DNA from: Spirosoma spitsbergense DSM 19989
GTDB taxonomy: Bacteria > Bacteroidota > Bacteroidia > Cytophagales > Spirosomataceae
Reading direction: 5' to 3'
DNA length: 64,000 bases
NCBI RefSeq assembly: GCF_000374085.1
Contig: NZ_KB893548.1
Coordinates: 89,496-153,495 of the forward strand
Shown: in pieces, positions 16,824-26,034 of the stretch
How the letters are laid out: the number at the start of each line of letters is the position of its first letter
Position numbering within the stretch: position 1 is the first letter of the stretch
Notes under the pieces: generated by a model
What the model was told of the DNA's origin: nothing
The model's input: only the letters and a program-made list of their open reading frames with translations
Database searches by the model: none
Made by a program: the position numbers and the translations under genes

Positions 16824-18056
16824 ATGGTTTCTGAAGAACTAGATATTACAAAGAATAACCTTCCTGCCGAACAGGGGCCGGTTCAGTATGTCAATGAACT
16901 GACAACGCTCAACCTCGGGCCTACGCACCCCGCTACGCACGGTATTTTTCAGAACATCCTGCAGATGGATGGTGAGAAAATCGTGTCGGGCGAACAAACA
17001 ATTGGCTATATCCATCGGGCGTTCGAGAAAATTGCGGAGCGTCGTCCTTTTTACCAGATCACGACACTTACCGACCGGATGAACTACTGTTCGTCACCCA
17101 TCAACAACATGGGCTGGCACATGACGGTCGAGAAGTTATTGGGTATCGACATTCCCAAACGGGCGCAGTACATCCGGGTTATTATGATGGAACTGGCCCG
17201 TCTCTCCGACCACCTTATCTGTAATGGTATTCTGGGCGTTGACACGGGAGCCTTTACGGGGTTCCTGTACATTTACCAGGAGAGGGAGCATATTTACGAA
17301 ATTTACGAAGAGGTCTGTGGGGCTCGATTAACCACTAATATGGGCCGCATTGGCGGGATGGAGCGCGATTTGTCGCCCACTGCCATTCGGAAAATTAAAG
17401 AACTGCTGCTTCGCTTCCCCAAAGTGCTTCGTGAATTTGAAAACCTCTTCAACCGCAACCGGATCTTTATGGACCGGGTTGTTAACGTAGGCGCTATTTC
17501 TGCCGAACGGGCTCTGAGTTACGGTTTTACCGGCCCCAACCTCCGGGCAGCGGGCGTTGATTACGACGTGCGGGTAATGAATCCTTATTCGTCCTACCAG
17601 GACTTTGAGTTCGATATTCCGGTTGGGCAAAGTGGTGATACATACGACCGGTTTATGGTCAGAAACGAAGAGATGTGGCAGAGTCTGCGCATCATACAGC
17701 AGGCAATGGATAATCTCCCGGAGGGCCCTTACTACGCCGATGCTCCTCAGTATTATCTGCCTCCAAAACAGGAAGTGTATAAAAACATGGAAGCCCTTAT
17801 TTATCACTTCAAGATAGTGATGGGTGAAATAGATGCACCGGTTGGTGAAGTATATCACGCCGTTGAGGGTGGAAATGGCGAATTAGGATTTTACCTGATT
17901 AGTGACGGTGGCCGTGCGCCTTACCGACTGCACTTCCGCCGGCCTTGCTTCATTTATTATCAGGCTTATCCCGAAATGTGTAAAGGGCTGACCTTGTCCG
18001 ACGCTATCGTAATTATGAGTAGCATGAACGTCATCGCCGGGGAGTTGGACGCTTAA
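16824..18056 (+). CDS. nuoD: NADH-quinone oxidoreductase subunit D
   Basis: 410 residues, the 49-kDa subunit that forms the quinone site with NuoB. The N-terminal loop LGPTHPATHGIF (about 31-42) carries the quinone-site His, and the body has NRIFMDRVVNVGAIS and the end LTLSDAIVIMSSMNVIAGELD, with Asp in place of the family's usual final residues. The length is normal. The next gene, 22 bases on, is not a complex I subunit. Confidence 0.97.
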   Translation: MVSEELDITKNNLPAEQGPVQYVNELTTLNLGPTHPATHGIFQNILQMDGEKIVSGEQTIGYIHRAFEKIAERRPFYQITTLTDRMNYCSSPINNMGWHMTVEKLLGIDIPKRAQYIRVIMMELARLSDHLICNGILGVDTGAFTGFLYIYQEREHIYEIYEEVCGARLTTNMGRIGGMERDLSPTAIRKIKELLLRFPKVLREFENLFNRNRIFMDRVVNVGAISAERALSYGFTGPNLRAAGVDYDVRVMNPYSSYQDFEFDIPVGQSGDTYDRFMVRNEEMWQSLRIIQQAMDNLPEGPYYADAPQYYLPPKQEVYKNMEALIYHFKIVMGEIDAPVGEVYHAVEGGNGELGFYLISDGGRAPYRLHFRRPCFIYYQAYPEMCKGLTLSDAIVIMSSMNVIAGELDA

Positions 18057-18078
18057 ACTGATTTAAAAGACAAAGAAG

Positions 18079-18522
18079 ATGAGGACGGTAGACTGGCAGG
18101 AGATGGTGGCTACGTCTCATTTAGATACAATAGTAGCCGTAAGAAGACTCCTCGAAGAGAAGGAGTATGAAGAGGCTCAGGAAGCGTTAGACGAACTGTA
18201 TCAGGCAATGGCTAACGCAGAACGAAGAGCACTGAATAGCCAGCTGATTAGGTTAATGGTGCATATTCTAAAATGGCGTTATCAGCCAGACAGACGATCA
18301 ACGAGCTGGGTACGAACGATTGTGAATGCCCGCCAGGAAATAAAATCGTTACAAGAGTATATGCCCTCCCTCAATCGGAAACATATCGAAACGATTTGGC
18401 AGAAAAATTTCGAGTTGGCTATTGATGCCGCCAAAGCAGAGATGAATTTGTCTCGAAAAGATAAATTTGAGCCAGCCGAATTAGATTGGGAAGAAGTGTT
18501 TGACGATGAATATCTGCTGTAA
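18079..18522 (+). CDS. DUF29-like small protein inside nuo operon
   Basis: 147 residues, soluble and highly charged. It has the layout of DUF29 proteins: an aromatic N-terminus (TVDWQEMV), a long charged helix with Glu/Asp/Leu, then ERRALNSQLIRLMVHILKWR (about 53-72) followed by a basic YQPDRRSTSW segment, and a C-terminal acidic tail (DWEEVFDDEYLL). It lies 22 bases after nuoD and 3 bases before nuoE, so it is surely co-transcribed. It resembles the second such gene at 20399 in the core helix pair. DUF29 has no established function; assembly or regulation of complex I would be a guess from position. Family call is by eye. Confidence 0.7.
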   Translation: MRTVDWQEMVATSHLDTIVAVRRLLEEKEYEEAQEALDELYQAMANAERRALNSQLIRLMVHILKWRYQPDRRSTSWVRTIVNARQEIKSLQEYMPSLNRKHIETIWQKNFELAIDAAKAEMNLSRKDKFEPAELDWEEVFDDEYLL

Positions 18523-18525
18523 CTA

Positions 18526-19029
18526 ATGACAACCGAATTAAACAACCCCGCCGTACAATTCACACCTGACCGGCTGACCAGAGCCAAAGAAATTATTGAC
18601 TGGTATCCAGAAGGCAGACAGAAATCGGCTTTATTGCCACTCCTGCACCTCTTGCAGGAACAGGAAGGCTGGACAAGCCCGGAGGGAATGGATTACGTAG
18701 CCCGGATGCTCGATATCCAGCCGATTGAAGTATATGAGGTGGCCTCATTCTATACAATGTACCACCTCAATCCGGTGGGCAAACACGTAATCGAGTATTG
18801 TCGAACCGGCCCTTGTTGTCTGATGGGTGGAGAGGAAGTATACACTCATCTAAAACAACGGCTAGGTGTCGATACGGGCCAAACAACCGTAGATGGCCAG
18901 TTTACGCTTAAAGAAGTAGAATGTCTGGCAGCCTGTGGTATGGGACCCGTGTTTCAGATCCGGGAGAAATACTATATGCACCTGACCAATGAAAAGGTAG
19001 ACGAAATCATTGACGAACTGTCGAAATAA
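18526..19029 (+). CDS. nuoE: NADH-quinone oxidoreductase subunit E
   Basis: 167 residues, the 24-kDa [2Fe-2S] subunit (cluster N1a). Cluster ligands are in EYCRTGPCCLMGG (about 88-100) and VECLAACGMGPVFQI (about 127-141). It begins 3 bases after the DUF29-like gene and ends 9 bases before nuoF. Confidence 0.96.
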   Translation: MTTELNNPAVQFTPDRLTRAKEIIDWYPEGRQKSALLPLLHLLQEQEGWTSPEGMDYVARMLDIQPIEVYEVASFYTMYHLNPVGKHVIEYCRTGPCCLMGGEEVYTHLKQRLGVDTGQTTVDGQFTLKEVECLAACGMGPVFQIREKYYMHLTNEKVDEIIDELSK

Positions 19030-19038
19030 TTTCCATAC

Positions 19039-20379
19039 ATGGCTACTAAGATTTTAACCCAATATATTGACGTTCCGGGTATTGAAACCTTCGACGTTTA
19101 CCGCAAACAGGGAGGTTACACGGCTGTAGAGAAAGCTATAAAGACAATGACTCCCGAAGCCATTGTTGAGGAGGTCAAAAAAGCGGGCGTTCGGGGTCGG
19201 GGTGGTGCTGGCTTCCCGATGGGGATGAAGTGGAGCTTTTTGGCCAAGCCGGAGGGCGTTCCCCGTTACCTCGTCTGCAACGCTGATGAATCAGAACCAG
19301 GCACGTTCAAAGATCATTACCTGATGAAAAATCTCCCCCACCTGCTCATTGAGGGAATGATTATTTCATCGTTTGCACTGGGTGCCAACAAGTCATTTAT
19401 TTATGTTCGGGGAGAGTTAATGTACGTCATTCGTATCCTCGAAAAAGCCATTGCCGAAGCGAAAGCAAAAGGGTTTTTAGGTAAGAACATTCTGGGCTCG
19501 GGCTATGATCTCGAGTTAATCGTTCAACCTGGTGGTGGTGCCTACATCTGTGGAGAAGAAACCGCACTGCTCGAATCACTGGAGGGTAAACGGGGTAACC
19601 CACGGAATAAACCGCCGTTTCCGGCTGTAAAAGGACTGTATCAGTGTCCAACCGTTGTCAATAATGTGGAGTCCCTGGCCACAACTTCCTGGATTGTCAA
19701 TAATGGGGGCGATGCCTATGCCGCTATCGGTATCGGACGCAGCACGGGTACCAAACTTATTTCGGCGTCCGGCCACATTAACAAACCGGGTGTGTATGAA
19801 ATTGACCTCGGTGTTCCGGTCGAAGATTTCATTTATGCCGATGAATGGTGTGGGGGTATCCGGCCTGGTCATAAATTCAAGGCATTGGTAGCCGGTGGTT
19901 CATCGGTGCCTATTCTGCCCGCCAACCTGGCCCTTACCTTGGAGAACGGTGACAAGCGCCTGATGACCTACGAATCTTTGTCGGAGGGGGGCTTCAAAAC
20001 CGGTACCATGCTGGGGTCAGGTGGGTTCATTGTATTTGACGAAACTTCCTGCATTGTTCGCAATACCTGGAATTTCTCCCGGTTCTATCATCACGAATCA
20101 TGCGGTCAGTGTAGCCCGTGCCGTGAGGGAACGGGTTGGATGGAGAAAGTACTGCACCGGATTGAATACGGACATGGCCATCAGCAGGATATTGACTTGC
20201 TGGTCGATGTAGCCTCCAAAATTGAGGGAAATACTATTTGCCCCCTGGGCGATGCGGCTGCCTGGCCAGTGGCTAGTGCCATCCGGCATTTCCGGGATGA
20301 ATTCCAGTGGCATATCGATAACCCAATCGAAGCAACGCAACCGGGTGCCGTGTATCGGGGTGAAATGGCGTTGGTGTAA
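19039..20379 (+). CDS. nuoF: NADH-quinone oxidoreductase subunit F
   Basis: 446 residues, the 51-kDa subunit that oxidises NADH with FMN and passes electrons to cluster N3. Visible motifs are GVRGRGGAGFPMGMKW (about 50-65) for nucleotide/FMN binding, the FMN segment VCNADESEPGTFKD, the glycine-rich GAYICGEETALLES and the cluster motif ESCGQCSPCREGTGW (about 354-368) with a later Cys in GNTICPLGD. It forms the dehydrogenase module with NuoE and NuoG. Confidence 0.97.
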   Translation: MATKILTQYIDVPGIETFDVYRKQGGYTAVEKAIKTMTPEAIVEEVKKAGVRGRGGAGFPMGMKWSFLAKPEGVPRYLVCNADESEPGTFKDHYLMKNLPHLLIEGMIISSFALGANKSFIYVRGELMYVIRILEKAIAEAKAKGFLGKNILGSGYDLELIVQPGGGAYICGEETALLESLEGKRGNPRNKPPFPAVKGLYQCPTVVNNVESLATTSWIVNNGGDAYAAIGIGRSTGTKLISASGHINKPGVYEIDLGVPVEDFIYADEWCGGIRPGHKFKALVAGGSSVPILPANLALTLENGDKRLMTYESLSEGGFKTGTMLGSGGFIVFDETSCIVRNTWNFSRFYHHESCGQCSPCREGTGWMEKVLHRIEYGHGHQQDIDLLVDVASKIEGNTICPLGDAAAWPVASAIRHFRDEFQWHIDNPIEATQPGAVYRGEMALV

Positions 20380-20398
20380 TTCTAAATGAAGTAAAGCG

Positions 20399-20833
20399 AT
20401 GGACGAATTGACAATGCTGCGAAAAATGGTCGAAGAACACGACTACGAAGGAGCACTCGCCATCATTAGTGATTTAGATGAGATGGCTAAGGATGATAAA
20501 ATTAATAAGATTGAATCATTTTTACTTGTCTTACTTATTCATCTGATTAAGCAACATGCCGAACAGCGCACCACTAAATCGTGGAACCGCTTTATTGACA
20601 ACGCACTGGGCGGTATTGCTAAATCGAATAAGCGTCGGAGTGCCGGAGGGCATTATTTACGCGCCGAAGAATTCAAAGACCTAATCAGTGAAACGTTTCC
20701 TCTTGCCGTTCGGAATGCGGCATACGAAGCTTTTGAAGGCATTTATTCGGCAGAGCAATTGTCTGCTATGATTGATGCCAATCAAATTGAGCAGGAAGCG
20801 TTTAACCAGATTTTAACGTATAAACTTGAGTAG
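20399..20833 (+). CDS. Second DUF29-like small protein inside nuo operon
   Basis: 144 residues, soluble, mainly helical. The core IESFLLVLLIHLIKQHAEQ (about 40-58) followed by RTTKSWNRFIDNAL lines up with the core of the protein at 18079 (hydrophobic helix, basic turn, Ser-Trp, helix), and this pattern is typical of DUF29. The two are strongly diverged. It lies between nuoF (19 bases) and nuoG (9 bases). As with the first copy no function is known. The presence of two members in one operon suggests a shared role in complex I biogenesis, which is inference. Confidence 0.65.
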   Translation: MDELTMLRKMVEEHDYEGALAIISDLDEMAKDDKINKIESFLLVLLIHLIKQHAEQRTTKSWNRFIDNALGGIAKSNKRRSAGGHYLRAEEFKDLISETFPLAVRNAAYEAFEGIYSAEQLSAMIDANQIEQEAFNQILTYKLE

Positions 20834-20842
20834 TAGCGACGA

Positions 20843-21928
20843 ATGGAAGATACAAAGCCGCAATTATTGAAAGTCACTATTGACGGAATTGACGTTGAGG
20901 TAGAGCCCGGAACGACTATTTTGCAGGCAGCCCGTAAGATTGGTCCCGCCGTTTCCCCTCCGGCTATGTGTTATTATGAGCCGTTGAAAGGTAGTGGTGG
21001 AAAATGCCGGGCCTGTCTGGTTCGGGTAGCTGCCGGATCAGCTAAAGATCCGCGCCCAATGCCTAAACTGGTGGCTTCCTGCCTGACAGCCGTACAGGAT
21101 GGCATGGTTGTCGAGAATGAAACGAATCCGCAGGTGATTGAAGCCCGTAATGGGGTTGTTGAGTTCCTGCTGTTGAATCATCCGCTCGACTGCCCCGTTT
21201 GCGATCAGGCGGGGGAGTGTGATCTGCAGAACTTCGCCTTCGACCATGGAAAAGTAACGACCCGATACGAAGAAGATCGCCGTACGTTCGAAAAACAGGA
21301 CATTGGCCCGTACATTCAATTACATATGACCCGCTGTATTCTGTGCTACCGTTGTGTATATACGGCGGATCAGATTACCAATAAACGGGTACACGGTGTA
21401 TTGGGACGGGGCGATGCCTCCGAAATAGGAACGTACATCGAGAAGGCGATTGATAATGATTTCTCCGGTAATGTGATTGATGTATGCCCGGTAGGAGCCT
21501 TGACAGATAAAACGTATCGCTTCAAAAACCGGGTGTGGTTTTCCAAACCTGTCGATGCACATCGCAACTGCCCAACCTGTTCCGGTAAGGTGACGCTCTG
21601 GTATCGTGGTGAGGAGGTTATTCGTGTAACGGCCCGGAAAAATGAATGGAGTGAGGTAACTGAGTTCATTTGCAACACCTGCCGGTTTGATACTAAGAAA
21701 ACCAGCGACTGGACCATTGAAGGGCCAACGAAGATCTCGCGTAGTTCAGTCATTTCTGCCAATAAGTATCGGGCTGATGCCATCAAGCCAAGTTTTGGCC
21801 AACGCCTGGCGGCTGCCGAATATAAAGAAATCCCTGACGAGCGGGACACATCACAACTGGGAATTGAGCCTTTGCCACCCGAACGTTTTGCAAAAACGCT
21901 GCCGTCTGCTATGGCACCCGAACCGTGA
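20843..21928 (+). CDS. nuoG: NADH-quinone oxidoreductase subunit G, short form
   Basis: 361 residues, less than half of the enterobacterial protein. It keeps the iron-sulfur part: [2Fe-2S] ligands in CYYEPLKGSGGKCRAC (about 35-50), the His/Cys cluster in CPVCDQAGECDLQNFAFDHG (about 117-136), a further cluster in TRCILCYRC and CPVGALTDK, and NCPTC with CNTC (about 241-280). It then stops with a short tail and lacks the molybdopterin-oxidoreductase-like domain. Short NuoG is known in Bacteroidota, so this is not a broken gene. Confidence 0.93.
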   Translation: MEDTKPQLLKVTIDGIDVEVEPGTTILQAARKIGPAVSPPAMCYYEPLKGSGGKCRACLVRVAAGSAKDPRPMPKLVASCLTAVQDGMVVENETNPQVIEARNGVVEFLLLNHPLDCPVCDQAGECDLQNFAFDHGKVTTRYEEDRRTFEKQDIGPYIQLHMTRCILCYRCVYTADQITNKRVHGVLGRGDASEIGTYIEKAIDNDFSGNVIDVCPVGALTDKTYRFKNRVWFSKPVDAHRNCPTCSGKVTLWYRGEEVIRVTARKNEWSEVTEFICNTCRFDTKKTSDWTIEGPTKISRSSVISANKYRADAIKPSFGQRLAAAEYKEIPDERDTSQLGIEPLPPERFAKTLPSAMAPEP

Positions 21929-22028
21929 GTAGTTTGAGAGAACAGTAGTTGATTAGGCTTTAATGTAGTCGACCAAAGAACGGCGACTAGTCTTGACAGG
22001 CCAACAGGAAAACTGAAAACGTTTAAAA

Positions 22029-23186
22029 ATGGATTTAACCACATTGCTCGTAAAGGGGCTGATTATCCTGATTATTTTTGTGATAACGCTCACTATTGCT
22101 GCCTATTCTACCTATGGTGAGCGGAAGGTAGCTGCTTTTTTACAGGATCGTATTGGTCCCAACCGGGCTGGCCCCTGGGGTTTATTACAACCGCTGGCCG
22201 ATGGCGGCAAAATGTTTTTCAAGGAAGACTTTATTCCGGCACAGGCCAGCAAATGGCTGTTTATTCTTGGACCCTGTCTGGCCATGCTGACAGCACTCAT
22301 GTCGAGTGCTGTCATTCCCTTTGGAGACACCATACGATTTGGTAATTACGCTATTCCGGTTCAGGCTATCGAAATCAATATCGGTGTGCTATACATTTTT
22401 GGGGTAGTGTCACTGGGTGTGTATGGGGTAATGGTAGGAGGGTGGGCATCGAACAATAAGTTCTCGTTGTTAGGGGCTATTCGGGCCGCTTCGCAGAATA
22501 TAAGCTACGAAATTGCGCTTGGCCTCTCGCTCATCGCGATTCTGATGATGACAGGGTCGCTATCGCTACGGGCTATCATTGATGAACAAGCAACGTTTTT
22601 CGAGTGGAACATCTTCACCCAGCCACTAGGCTTCGTAATCTTCCTGACCTGCGCTTTCGCGGAATGTAACCGTACACCTTTCGATTTGCCGGAGTGCGAA
22701 ACGGAACTTATTGGTGGATATCATACTGAATATAGTTCGATGAAACTTGGCTTCTACCTTTTCGCGGAGTACATCAACATGTTTGTTTCATCGGCCTTTA
22801 TATCCGCCCTGTATTTTGGAGGGTTTCATTACCCGTTCATGAGTGAAATAAGCGGAGCGTTAGAAAACTCAATGGGTGCTATTGCGGGTCATAACGTAGC
22901 TACGGCGATTGGTATCGTTATGTTCTTTGCCAAAATTTTCTTCTTCATTTTCTTTTTCATGTGGGTTCGCTGGACGTTACCCCGCTTCCGCTACGACCAG
23001 TTGATGAACCTGGGATGGAAAACATTCATACCGCTGGCTATCCTGAATGTAGTAATAACCGGAGCAGGTCTGCTGTATGATTTCAAGTATGCAACCTGGA
23101 TTATTGCCATCACCATGATTGGTATGGTAGTCGTATCAAACGCCCGTGCACCGAAGCGGGAAGTGGTTAGGCCGGGAGTCGTTTAA
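22029..23186 (+). CDS. nuoH: NADH-quinone oxidoreductase subunit H
   Basis: 385 residues, the membrane subunit that completes the quinone channel. About eight helices are visible. Conserved loops include YGERKVAAFLQDRIGPNRAG (about 29-48), AFAECNRTPFDLPECETELI (about 211-230) and GYHTEYSSMKLG. The protein is somewhat longer than usual in the region 260-300 (FHYPFMSEISGALENSMG). The 100-base gap before it holds a small hairpin, TAGTCG/CGACTA at 21966-21989. Confidence 0.96.
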   Translation: MDLTTLLVKGLIILIIFVITLTIAAYSTYGERKVAAFLQDRIGPNRAGPWGLLQPLADGGKMFFKEDFIPAQASKWLFILGPCLAMLTALMSSAVIPFGDTIRFGNYAIPVQAIEINIGVLYIFGVVSLGVYGVMVGGWASNNKFSLLGAIRAASQNISYEIALGLSLIAILMMTGSLSLRAIIDEQATFFEWNIFTQPLGFVIFLTCAFAECNRTPFDLPECETELIGGYHTEYSSMKLGFYLFAEYINMFVSSAFISALYFGGFHYPFMSEISGALENSMGAIAGHNVATAIGIVMFFAKIFFFIFFFMWVRWTLPRFRYDQLMNLGWKTFIPLAILNVVITGAGLLYDFKYATWIIAITMIGMVVVSNARAPKREVVRPGVV

Positions 23187-23236
23187 AGTCAACACGTTTG
23201 CCGTTCATGCCGGTTATCCGGTAAAAACTGAAAAAA

Positions 23237-23803
23237 ATGCAGTTAACTAATCGTTCTAAACAGGTCAGTAATAAAGAAATGACGCTGGCCGAAAAGATGT
23301 ACCTGCCTGCTGTTATTAGCGGACTGGCTATCACTATCGGTCACTTCTTTCGAAAAAAGCCCACTATCCAATATCCGGAAGTTAAAAAGTATCTTGGCCC
23401 TATTTATCGGGGACATCATATTCTGAAACGGGATGAGCAGGGTCGGGAGCGGTGTACAGCCTGCGGCCTATGCGCTGTTGCCTGTCCGGCAGAAGCCATT
23501 TCTATGGTAGCTGCCGAGCGCGAAAAAGGAGAGGAAACGTTATATCGGGAGGAGAAATACGCTGCGGTTTACGAAATCAATATGCTGCGTTGCATCTTCT
23601 GTGGATTATGTGAGGAGGCTTGCCCAAAGCAGGCCGTCTACCTTCGCCATGACCGTATGGTGCCGGTTTTTCAGGAGCGCGACGAAGTGATTTACGGCAA
23701 AGACCGGCTGGTCGAGAAAATGGATGACCGCTATATCCGGGCCAATAACTCTGAAGTAAACACTACGCCAACCGAACCCAGCCTGACACGGGCGGCCACT
23801 TAA
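23237..23803 (+). CDS. nuoI: NADH-quinone oxidoreductase subunit I
   Basis: 188 residues, carrying two [4Fe-4S] clusters (N6a, N6b). The ferredoxin motifs are CTACGLCAVACP (about 73-84) and CIFCGLCEEACP (about 118-129). The start at 23237 is the first ATG; a second in-frame ATG at 23279 is less likely but possible. The C-terminal tail after residue 165 is Thr/Asn-rich and variable. Confidence 0.96.
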   Translation: MQLTNRSKQVSNKEMTLAEKMYLPAVISGLAITIGHFFRKKPTIQYPEVKKYLGPIYRGHHILKRDEQGRERCTACGLCAVACPAEAISMVAAEREKGEETLYREEKYAAVYEINMLRCIFCGLCEEACPKQAVYLRHDRMVPVFQERDEVIYGKDRLVEKMDDRYIRANNSEVNTTPTEPSLTRAAT

Positions 23804-23806
23804 TCT

Positions 23807-23901
23807 ATTGTCATTTGTTATCATTTTTAGTCATTAAGTAGTGGTTTATTAACTCTGTGCTACAAATGGCGATAAATGTCTACTCATGACTACCAATGAC
23901 C
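23807..23901. repeat. Imperfect inverted repeat between nuoI and nuoJ (GTCATT type)
   Basis: The left part contains GTCATTTGTTATCATTTTTA and the right part reads, on the other strand, GTCATTGGTAGTCATGAGTA. It shares the string GTCATTGGTAGT with the element at 47911-47987. Its right edge reaches the region of the nuoJ start. Confidence 0.55.
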
Positions 23902-23907
23902 AAAAAC

Positions 23908-24462
23908 ATGACTGAAACAATCGACTTCTTTAAAAATCTTACCCCCACCGGATACCTGTTTCTGGTCCTGACCGCTATCACGCTTTTTAGTGCTATTGGT
24001 GTGGTCACAGCGCGTAATCCAGTATACAGCGTTTTGGCCCTTATCGCTACATTCTTTTGTCTATCGGGTCATTACATTCTATTGAATGCTCAGTTTTTAG
24101 CGGCTGTTAATATCATTGTCTACGCCGGGGCTATCATGGTGCTATTCCTCTTCACCATCATGTTTTTAAATCTTCGGAGAGAAGATGAGGAGTCAAAAAC
24201 GAATGTCACCAAGATGATTTCGGTCGTGATGGGTGGCATACTGATGGTTATGCTGATTACGATATTCCGGGCAAAAAGCGCTCAGGTACCCACCTTCAGC
24301 AACACTGCGTTCAACGCAAGAACAGGACTGGTTGAGAATCTGGGGCAATTGCTATATAATGACTATATCCTGCCCTTCGAGTTGGCATCGGTACTTTTCC
24401 TGGTCGCTATGGTAGGGGCTGTCATGCTTGGTAAGCGCGAAGCAGGCGACCGGCACTTCTGA
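23908..24462 (+). CDS. nuoJ: NADH-quinone oxidoreductase subunit J
   Basis: 184 residues from the ATG at 23908; an earlier ATG at 23896 lies inside the intergenic repeat, so I prefer the later one, which matches the layout at 47995. Five membrane helices are visible, with the conserved GHYILLNAQFLAAVNIIVYAG, cut here, and ending in the pattern VGAVMLGKRE typical of NuoJ. It is the last complex I gene in the window: a terminator follows 29 bases later and nuoK, L, M and N are not present nearby. Confidence 0.94.
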   Translation: MTETIDFFKNLTPTGYLFLVLTAITLFSAIGVVTARNPVYSVLALIATFFCLSGHYILLNAQFLAAVNIIVYAGAIMVLFLFTIMFLNLRREDEESKTNVTKMISVVMGGILMVMLITIFRAKSAQVPTFSNTAFNARTGLVENLGQLLYNDYILPFELASVLFLVAMVGAVMLGKREAGDRHF

Positions 24463-24573: not shown

Positions 24574-24585
24574 TATGCTTGCATA
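24574..24585. promoter_or_regulatory. Palindromic operator before thiolase gene
   Basis: TATGCTTGCATA, the same 12-base palindrome found twice before the acyl-CoA dehydrogenase gene. It lies 12 bases upstream of a TAAGTTTG -7 box, so a bound protein would cover the promoter. A TetR-type fatty-acid regulator is the likely kind of binder; this is inference. Confidence 0.65.
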
Positions 24586-24596
24586 ACAATTTTGCA

Positions 24597-24604
24597 TAAG
24601 TTTG
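24597..24604 (+). promoter_or_regulatory. Possible -7 box for thiolase gene
   Basis: TAAGTTTG fits TAnnTTTG, 68 bases before the ATG, immediately downstream of the palindromic operator. Confidence 0.45.
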
Positions 24605-24671
24605 TAATTATTCCCGTTTATGATAGGTTTATAGGGTATAGTTTCCTGCCAAATCAGTAATCAAGAAAAAT

Positions 24672-25850
24672 ATGGACGCATACATTGTAGCTGGATATCG
24701 AACCGCCGTAGGTAAAGCCCCGCGCGGAGGTCTCCGTTTCACCCGCCCTGATGATATGGCGGCTGACGTTATCAAACATTTGCTGACCCAGGTTCCCAAT
24801 CTTGACCCGGCCCGTGTAGAAGATTTAATTGTGGGTAATGCTGTGCCCGAAGCCGAACAGGGTATGCAGATTGCCCGGTATATCGCGCTGTTGTCCCTAC
24901 CGAACAGCGTGCCAGGCATGACCATTAACCGATATTGCGGTTCTGGTCTGGAAGCCATCGCCATTGCCTCTGCTAAAATTCATGCTGGTCTGGCCGATTG
25001 CATTATTGCAGGAGGTACCGAGTCAATGTCTATGGTGCCGGTTATGGGCTGGAAAACAGCGCTTAACTATGAAATTGCTAAAGCACACCCCGATTATTAT
25101 ATTGGTATGGGCCTAACGGCCGAACAGGTGGCTCAGCAGTTTAAAATCAGCCGCGATGCGCAGGACGAGTTCGCCCTGGAATCACATCAGAAAGCGTTGG
25201 CCGCTCAGAAAGAAGGGAAATTTACCGACGAGATTGTACCAATCAACGTGAGTGAAACCTATTTCGATGCGGAAAGTAATAAAAAGAAAACCCGTGAGTG
25301 GACTGTTGCCCAGGACGAAGGTCCGCGTAAAGACACTAGTGCCGAAGGACTGGCCAGATTACGTCCCGTGTTTGCGGCTGGTGGGTCCGTAACCGCCGGT
25401 AACTCCTCACAAACATCCGACGGAGCCGCTTTTGTGGTAGTGATGTCGGAGAAACTGGTTAATGAACTGAATCTACAGCCTATTGCCCGGATGGTATCGT
25501 ATGCCACAGCGGGTGTAGAACCCAAAATTATGGGTATAGGGCCGGTGGCCGCTATTCCAATTGCCCTTAAAAAGGCTGGGATGAAACAGGACGACATCGA
25601 ACTCATTGAGCTAAATGAAGCCTTTGCTGCCCAATCGCTGGCCGTTATTCAGGAATTGGGTCTGGACCGCAGTAGGATAAACCCGAACGGTGGGGCTATC
25701 GCGCTGGGACACGCACTGGGTTCTACCGGTGCCCGGTTATCGGTACAGCTATTGAACGAGATGCGCCGTCGCAACCAGAAATACGGCATGGTGTCGGCCT
25801 GCGTTGGTGGTGGACAGGGTGTCGCCGGGATTTTCGAGCGATTGAATTAA
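24672..25850 (+). CDS. fadA: Acetyl-CoA acyltransferase (thiolase)
   Basis: 392 residues. It performs the thiolytic step of fatty acid beta-oxidation, or the reverse condensation. The acylated Cys is in NRYCGSGLEAIA (about 88-99), and the catalytic His and second Cys are in NEAFAAQS, GGAIALGHALGSTGAR (about 345-360) and SACVGGGQG (about 377-385). The length is normal for thiolase I/II. It shares the TATGCTTGCATA palindrome with the acyl-CoA dehydrogenase gene after it, which supports the beta-oxidation role. The symbol is by role; the exact chain-length preference is not visible. Confidence 0.92.
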   Translation: MDAYIVAGYRTAVGKAPRGGLRFTRPDDMAADVIKHLLTQVPNLDPARVEDLIVGNAVPEAEQGMQIARYIALLSLPNSVPGMTINRYCGSGLEAIAIASAKIHAGLADCIIAGGTESMSMVPVMGWKTALNYEIAKAHPDYYIGMGLTAEQVAQQFKISRDAQDEFALESHQKALAAQKEGKFTDEIVPINVSETYFDAESNKKKTREWTVAQDEGPRKDTSAEGLARLRPVFAAGGSVTAGNSSQTSDGAAFVVVMSEKLVNELNLQPIARMVSYATAGVEPKIMGIGPVAAIPIALKKAGMKQDDIELIELNEAFAAQSLAVIQELGLDRSRINPNGGAIALGHALGSTGARLSVQLLNEMRRRNQKYGMVSACVGGGQGVAGIFERLN

Positions 25851-25866
25851 TCGAAGGAAACGGCGT

Positions 25867-25903
25867 AAAAAAGGGTGATGAATAATTTCATCAGCCTTTT
25901 TTT
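25867..25903 (+). terminator. Terminator after thiolase gene
   Basis: TGATGA/TCATCA stem extended by AAAAAAGG and CCTTTTTT with one mismatch, ending in a T run, 16 bases after the stop codon. Confidence 0.8.
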
Positions 25904-25964
25904 AATTACCCTGTTCCAATCTGACAACTAGCTACATCTCACACGGTACTATCCACTTTCTAAA

Positions 25965-25996
25965 AAATAATTAGTATGCTTGCATACTAATTATTT
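25965..25996. promoter_or_regulatory. Long perfect palindrome (operator) before acyl-CoA dehydrogenase gene
   Basis: Fifteen-base perfect arms around a TT centre; the core is TATGCTTGCATA, identical to the site before the thiolase gene, and the arms extend to AATAATTAG and its complement. It lies 56 bases before the start codon. A high-affinity operator for a dimeric repressor is the simplest reading. Confidence 0.75.
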
Positions 25997-26022
25997 AGTG
26001 ATTTTCTTTGTTATATAAATAG

Positions 26023-26034
26023 TATGCAAGCATA
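26023..26034. promoter_or_regulatory. Second operator copy before acyl-CoA dehydrogenase gene
   Basis: TATGCAAGCATA, the reverse complement of TATGCTTGCATA, 17 bases before the start codon. Centre-to-centre distance to the long palindrome is 48 bases. Confidence 0.65.

Follow-up and report, generated by a model that had tools for sequence, protein, structure and literature searches.

In Bacillus, fatty acid degradation involves FadR, a regulator of the TetR family that controls the fadNAE genes, and in the MarR family the ligand of CouR is p-coumaroyl-CoA, which belongs to an aromatic pathway. FabT of streptococci (PDB 6jbx), also of the MarR family, controls the synthesis of fatty acids and not their degradation. 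For the Proteobacteria, the parts of PMC5343134 available to us give regulators of fatty acid degradation of the GntR (FadR) and TetR (PsrA, FadP) families, and most of the regulons there include the gene of their own regulator; among the available rows of the table of that paper, MarR is represented by one row, HmgS, which concerns tyrosine, and by none for fatty acid degradation. In Flavobacterium psychrophilum, fish mucus and plasma raise the expression of beta-oxidation genes according to the available part of PMC9723704, from whose main text the term MarR is absent. Among the papers listed in the literature searched, most subscription journals being outside its scope, we found neither a MarR regulator of beta-oxidation in Bacteroidota nor any regulator of fatty acid degradation described for this phylum, which is a major one in soil, sea and gut.

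The DNA analysed here belongs to a Spirosoma genome of 7.55 Mb, and "the window" is the whole 64-kb stretch under analysis (G000:C161:89496-153495). It carries copies of a palindrome that is, with high probability, the operator of an autoregulated MarR-family repressor of fatty-acid oxidation, released by a ligand from the pathway. As with FadR, PsrA and FadP of the Proteobacteria, in the part of PMC5343134 available, one regulator would stand before many scattered beta-oxidation operons; the protein families and the phylum differ. In comparison with Bacillus FadR, the types of target are alike (FadN-, FadA- and FadE-like) and the dehydrogenase of the window passes the Bacillus FadE model, whereas Bacillus FadR is a TetR protein with one operon and the Spirosoma candidate is a MarR protein with scattered genes. 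The regulon would thus be of a known type, that of fatty-acid degradation, but under a different family of proteins and in a different phylum. One candidate protein and one operator mark much of the pathway in the genus, which makes its control accessible to experiment.

Searching the window for the 12-mer TATGCTTGCATA gave three exact copies, at 24574-24585 (+), 25975-25986 (+) and 26023-26034 (-), just as an earlier note on this DNA had described them, the first preceding the thiolase gene and the other two the acyl-CoA dehydrogenase gene. They lie 86 bases from the start codon of the thiolase and 65 and 17 bases from that of the dehydrogenase, and the two dehydrogenase sites are separated by 48 bases from centre to centre. 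The copy at 25975 is embedded in a perfect inverted repeat, with arms of 15 bases each (25965-25979 and 25982-25996) and a gap of 2 bases, which bears out the long palindrome of the same note. Strictly, the 12-mer is made of TATGC/GCATA arms with a non-palindromic TT or AA centre, and the alignment of the sites of MarR orthologues gives the true site as TATGC-NN-GCATA inside a longer palindrome.

The thiolase of the window scored 576 bits against its NCBIfam model NF006553 (cut-off 567) and the dehydrogenase 806 bits against NF058590 (cut-off 600). For the thiolase promoter, there are two candidates for the -7 box, whose consensus TAnnTTTG is placed at -12 to -5 in the available part of PMC9723704; the choice between them is uncertain, and hence also a contact of operator 1 with the -7 box. 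Within window 24579-24599, the right half of operator 1, TTGCATAA, recurs 13 bases downstream, at 24592-24599. Directly 5' of the thiolase gene, a run of genes (window 16824-24462), which from the names given by their translations we take to be complex I subunits, ends after a nuoJ-like gene, and this run holds two short ORFs of no assigned name (18079-18522 and 20399-20833).

Table 1. Features of the thiolase and acyl-CoA dehydrogenase region and the candidate regulator gene (positions in the window, except for the regulator gene).
Feature	Position	Strand	Remarks
Operator 1 GTATGCTTGCATAA	24573..24586	+	exact core, upstream of thiolase gene
Two candidate -7 boxes of thiolase promoter	24605..24631	+	conserved blocks in 30 orthologues, consensus TAnnTTTG
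Candidate -7 box TAATTATT	24605-24612	+	
Candidate -7 box TAGGTTTA	24624-24631	+	
Acetyl-CoA C-acyltransferase (thiolase, FadA type), 392 aa	24672..25850	+	NCBIfam NF006553, Pfam Thiolase_N + Thiolase_C
Operator 2 GTATGCTTGCATAC	25974-25987		within perfect palindrome 25965..25996 (15-base arms, 2-base centre)
Operator 3 GTATGCAAGCATAA	26022..26035	+	12-base core ends 17 bases 5' of dehydrogenase start codon
Acyl-CoA dehydrogenase, Bacillus FadE type, 608 aa	26052..27878	+	NCBIfam NF058590, Pfam
MarR-family gene, 156 aa	G000:C17:10188-10655	minus	adjoins FadN-like 3-hydroxyacyl-CoA dehydrogenase/enoyl-CoA hydratase

When up to 2 mismatches to the 12-mer were allowed, the window contained 9 matches compared to 5.1 expected, a number reached by 9 of 100 shuffles, so that nothing but the exact copies is conspicuous. 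In the whole genome there are 4 exact copies of the 12-mer, with 2 occurrences of the backwards control and approximately 1.05 expected from the base composition of the window; this count alone is weak evidence. All four copies precede acyl-CoA dehydrogenase, thiolase or etfB genes, the fourth being located in the gap that separates etfB from a small, divergent TPR-like gene. The palindromic form KTATGCNNGCATAM was found at 10 places in the own genome, compared to 1 for the reversed control and about 1.9 expected. The tenth place, on C24, is within coding sequence; the other 9, in eight promoters, precede genes of beta-oxidation or linked electron transfer or the MarR gene. The genes concerned are the thiolase (1 site) and the acyl-CoA dehydrogenase (2 sites) of the window, etfBA (1 site) and five more. 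Of these five, the MarR-family regulator has an 811-aa FadN-like 3-hydroxyacyl-CoA dehydrogenase behind it, a second thiolase has a 715-aa FadJ-like protein, a crotonase-family (enoyl-CoA hydratase) gene has a short-chain dehydrogenase, and a 466-aa Fe-S protein has a CCG-domain protein; the fifth is a 389-aa acyl-CoA dehydrogenase.

Looser patterns showed no excess in the own genome, either for the 16-mer at up to 3 mismatches (199 places, control 198) or for TATGCNNGCATA at up to 1 mismatch (130, control 248), and weak sites were therefore left uninterpreted. The weak site C157:26606, which precedes an enoyl-CoA hydratase gene, is probably real, considering that exact sites precede its orthologue in the congeners G004 and G005. 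Among the other two-mismatch places inspected in the own genome, none beyond the nine-site set resembled a beta-oxidation promoter.

Across 36 genomes of the genus, including the own one, GTATGCNNGCATAC was found at 258 places compared to 13 for the reversed pattern, and it was present in all 36. All 75 exact sites of ten congeners (G001-G010) were fetched. Of these, 67 precede orthologues of the own-genome set and 4 a gene resembling acyl-CoA dehydrogenase (27% identity), giving 71 sites before genes of beta-oxidation or linked electron transfer or the regulator. The earlier note had proposed to see by a genome scan whether the motif lies before beta-oxidation genes, with a random distribution, or no enrichment before fatty-acid genes, counting against its reading; the placement found, 9 of 10 in the own genome and 71 of 75 in the congeners, does not refute it. 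All ten congeners have a site at the 608-aa dehydrogenase, at hydratase 279, at etfB (with the TPR-like gene), at thiolase 403 and at dehydrogenase 389, whereas 9 have one at Fe-S 466, 6 at the MarR gene and 2 at hydratase 265; the MarR site of the remaining four congeners has one mismatch and hence falls outside the exact list. Other neighbours were seen at 4 of the 75 sites: L160, L176, L173 (inside a gene) and L181 (near an integrase-like gene). L160 (1627-2019) and L176 (1080-1451) encode look-alike small proteins in two congeners, with the operator upstream and no Pfam match.

The thiolase site is present, with at most 1 mismatch to GTATGCNNGCATAC, in each of the 30 orthologues examined out of the 35 genus genomes with a match. 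In their alignment over 280 bases, the core columns of operator 1 agree with the own sequence to 98% on average, compared to 51% in the remaining columns. Within 400 bases downstream of the thiolase gene, two exact sites 47-48 bases apart are found at 11 of the 30 loci, the own one included, a single one-mismatch site at 1, and no site at 18; at one or more of these 18 loci, that of G003 among them, the dehydrogenase site is approximately 10 kb away. In the 11 loci with both sites, the core columns of operators 2 and 3 are 94% and 86% identical to the own sequence, respectively, compared to 55% elsewhere.

The placement, the palindromic form and the conservation of the sites are what goes beyond chance. 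Chance copies of a palindrome, or a structural element without regulator (hairpin, terminator, uptake-like sequence), would be compatible with an exact 12-mer count that is not far above its control and its expectation, but not readily with 71 of 75 sites before one pathway, with the excess over reversed controls in the 36 genomes, with a core so much better kept than its surroundings, or with the fact that the centre varies while the arms stay conserved, in sites chosen at up to 2 mismatches. We consider this explanation to be of negligible probability.

The only regulator gene with a site, among the neighbours read in the own genome, encodes a protein of the MarR family. It scored 30.5 bits against PF01047 (cut-off 24.6); its Pfam matches are MarR, HTH_27, Staph_reg_Sar_Rot, MarR_2 and HTH_Crp_2, with TetR_N absent from them. 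At E ≤0.001 it matches 83 distinct PDB sequences, and the 60 listed bear mostly MarR-type names; FabT (PDB 6jbx) is matched by sequence with an E value of 2.6e-6. The predicted structure of an orthologue has the MarR fold, and its fold matches include FabT and CouR, a MarR-family repressor solved with p-coumaroyl-CoA (PDB 5cyv of Rhodococcus, and 6c28). Among the 50 fold matches listed there is no TetR or GntR chain, which in itself proves nothing. With respect to named MarR equivalogs (SlyA, MarR, OhrR, HpaR and others), nine NCBIfam models were matched and none was passed, the best score being 42 bits for a cut-off of 200. The gene is found in 34 of 36 genus genomes (32 of 32 good ones), in 100 of 101 genomes of the family by profile search, and in 95 of the 198 genomes that make up the class sample.

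We examined 59 MarR loci, the 30 best of the genus and the 29 best of the class. In 58 of them a site with at most 2 mismatches lies 24-85 bases 5' of the matched start, 28 of the 29 best-scoring class loci carry the site upstream, and a FadN-like gene stands behind the MarR gene in all 59. Among the best 80 of 578 named MarR loci, the site is present with at most 1 mismatch in 70, with two in 6 and with three in 1, and is missing in 3. In 24 of these 80, the genes found behind the MarR gene include none of the own-genome set, and 18 of the 24 still have a site at up to 1 mismatch, which speaks for autoregulation. The loci L327-L340, L342, L344, L346, L348, L351, L356 and L362 (Runella, Emticicia and others) are of this kind, with no own-set gene found behind MarR and the operator kept in most. 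The order fadN-thiolase-dehydrogenase behind the MarR gene is seen in 6 of the 80 named loci.

Together, these two sets gave 139 upstream regions of MarR orthologues, of which 129 are distinct, as ten loci are present in both under two names. A site with at most 1 mismatch is present in 114 of the 129 and missing in 15, while the reversed pattern is found in none, and 179 other palindromes made of the same half-site letters are found on average in 0.05 and at most in 1 each. The consensus of 108 distinct sites, chosen at up to 2 mismatches, is roughly AAATAGTATGCwTGCATACTATTT, with a varying centre between conserved arms.

The sites, with their gene neighbours and their conservation, are accompanied by a coupling of site and regulator across genomes. 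In the class sample, the own genome being left out, the 94 genomes with the MarR gene have a mean of 2.43 exact motif places compared to 0.44 for the reversed pattern, and the 103 genomes without a MarR match at E 1e-20 a mean of 0.91 compared to 0.62. The Mann-Whitney p value is 4e-9 for the motif and 0.38 for the control, only indicative figures as the genomes are related. The exact motif is missing in 16 of the 94 genomes with the MarR gene, and at least 1 motif is present in 53 of the 103 without it.

These counts bear on the type of the regulator, which the earlier note had supposed to be a TetR protein whose gene would itself be preceded by the motif. No TetR gene was seen among the neighbouring genes read around the 10 places of the own genome, and TetR was dropped as the regulator. 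It could still be argued that a TetR-type FadR-like protein binds the operator and that the MarR gene is merely one of its targets, since PsrA and FadP are TetR regulators of fatty acid degradation (PMC5343134, available part); this is improbable, considering that the MarR gene is the sole regulator gene marked at those places, that its own site is kept in most of the distinct loci, and that the motif counts track the MarR gene in the class sample. An autoregulated MarR protein, rather than a TetR protein, is most likely the regulator.

In the family sample of 101 genomes, the motif was found at 908 places compared to 130 for the reversed pattern. The 96 family genomes with an etfB match (E 1e-60) have a mean of 9.4 motif places and a minimum of 3, while the five without such a match have 0, 0, 0, 1 and 4, the last being G266, which is 63% complete. 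Genomes of this kind, which lack an etfB match and have few operators or none, offer an evolutionary test of the regulon. In three of the 101 (G240, G289 and G310), the MarR orthologue is kept with no exact motif and no etfB match; the MarR protein can persist without the motif. For G289 and G310, no site at up to 2 mismatches was found in 7.5 kb around the MarR gene, and the FadN-like protein behind it (L432, L433) has no GxGxxG-type NAD motif, with GSS instead of GSG, the altered NAD domain of G289 being still recognised by Pfam with a lower score. Their congener G251 has kept the GSG motif, and the operator at one mismatch. The three genomes look like cases of decay of the pathway together with its operators, as judged from their sequences.

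At etfB, the 30 loci examined (the best of the 96 family genomes) all have a zero-mismatch site, 55-192 bases before the gene. The etfBA site adjoins the divergent small TPR-like gene, 55-289 bases from etfB in the loci measured. In the genus g132, the distance from the site to etfB is 14-18 bases (7 of 7 genomes). At the one locus inspected there, a divergent TPR-like gene is likewise near the site, so that the target may be either of these genes or both.

We propose the following mechanism. A MarR dimer would bind TATGC-NN-GCATA within a palindrome of about 24-26 bases. When fatty acids are absent, it would block RNA polymerase at its own promoter, and also at the promoters of the thiolases, the acyl-CoA dehydrogenases, the enoyl-CoA hydratase, etfBA and the Fe-S/CCG electron-transfer pair. 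A fatty acyl-CoA, which the nature of the targets suggests, or another intermediate of the pathway would release MarR and switch the pathway on, down to the respiratory chain. We infer each of its elements, i.e. the binding of MarR to the site, the repression and the identity of the ligand.

The positions of the operators fit steric repression, with start points placed from conservation and the TAnnTTTG consensus. For an enoyl-CoA hydratase and a thiolase, the distance from operator to start codon is about 8-22 bases at 19 of 20 loci and 72 bases at the other one. From consensus and conserved blocks, it would lie just after the likely transcription start of thiolase 403 (TACTTTTG, then 14 bases) and near that of hydratase 279, and at the MarR gene and dehydrogenase 389 it covers the putative -33 region. 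As the operators overlap the predicted promoter and start regions, repression relieved by fatty acyl-CoA is the best model. The geometry is less clear for the thiolase of the window, whose site may be upstream of the promoter, where activation is conceivable, and for Fe-S 466, where the site is about 300 bases away with a tRNA-Phe between operator and gene.

Sites located upstream of or at the putative -33 region, as for the window thiolase, acyl-CoA dehydrogenase 389 and Fe-S 466, would be accounted for if the MarR protein activated transcription, or acted in both ways, instead of only repressing it. The operators of thiolase 403 and enoyl-CoA hydratase 279 and the second dehydrogenase site, however, are close 5' of the start codon, at or after the predicted transcription start, where activators normally do not bind; a role of this kind is unlikely, and activation ranks below repression.

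The operator of Fe-S 466 (L032 4795-7114, own genome C159) is followed by genes for two proteins, the 466-aa Fe-S protein and one with the CCG domain. This pair presumably resembles a split ETF:menaquinone oxidoreductase which, if right, would link beta-oxidation to the respiratory chain.

The earlier note thus holds in part. Its reading of the palindrome as an operator common to thiolase and dehydrogenase, and as part of a fatty-acid regulon of which the literature searched gave no description, is supported; its restriction to this lineage is not, given the spread of the MarR gene in the class sample and of the site before its best class loci. Beyond the genus, two other families were looked at through four genomes (G173, G204, G092 and G129), with 20 of their 24 motif places fetched, those omitted being three at the MarR gene and one more. 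The window-type dehydrogenase is preceded by 2 of these 20 sites. Others precede secretory lipases in two genomes, one of these sites being shared with an isocitrate dehydrogenase gene, as well as alkaline ceramidase, biotin carboxylase and PLP decarboxylase genes, and fatty-acid-hydroxylase genes with DUF4442 proteins (in one genome by Pfam, in its congener by eye); the loci with lipases, ceramidase, hydroxylases and DUF4442 proteins are L271, L277, L278, L279, L281, L284, L286 and L287. No evident lipid gene was found at 8 of the 20 (L270, L274, L276, L280, L282, L285, L288 and L289), part of which were searched in Pfam. This tally, which comes without a control count, suggests that a wider lipid regulon may exist in other families.

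We lean, by a small measure, towards the MarR protein as the ancestral master switch of lipid catabolism in the class, with one acyl-CoA sensor and one nearly invariant operator. With the same modest preference, its targets would be beta-oxidation in Spirosoma, via ETF to a membrane Fe-S/CCG oxidoreductase, and elsewhere secreted lipases, ceramidase, fatty-acid hydroxylases and DUF4442 proteins (possible thioesterases). If true, it would be, to our knowledge, the first MarR-type global regulator of beta-oxidation, as we know of no other. Two proteins of the distant loci left an impression of their own: that of L270, for which Pfam gives nothing, seems phasin-like, and the PLP decarboxylase of L272 seems sphingosine-lyase-like, its Pfam matches being Pyridoxal_deC and related models only.
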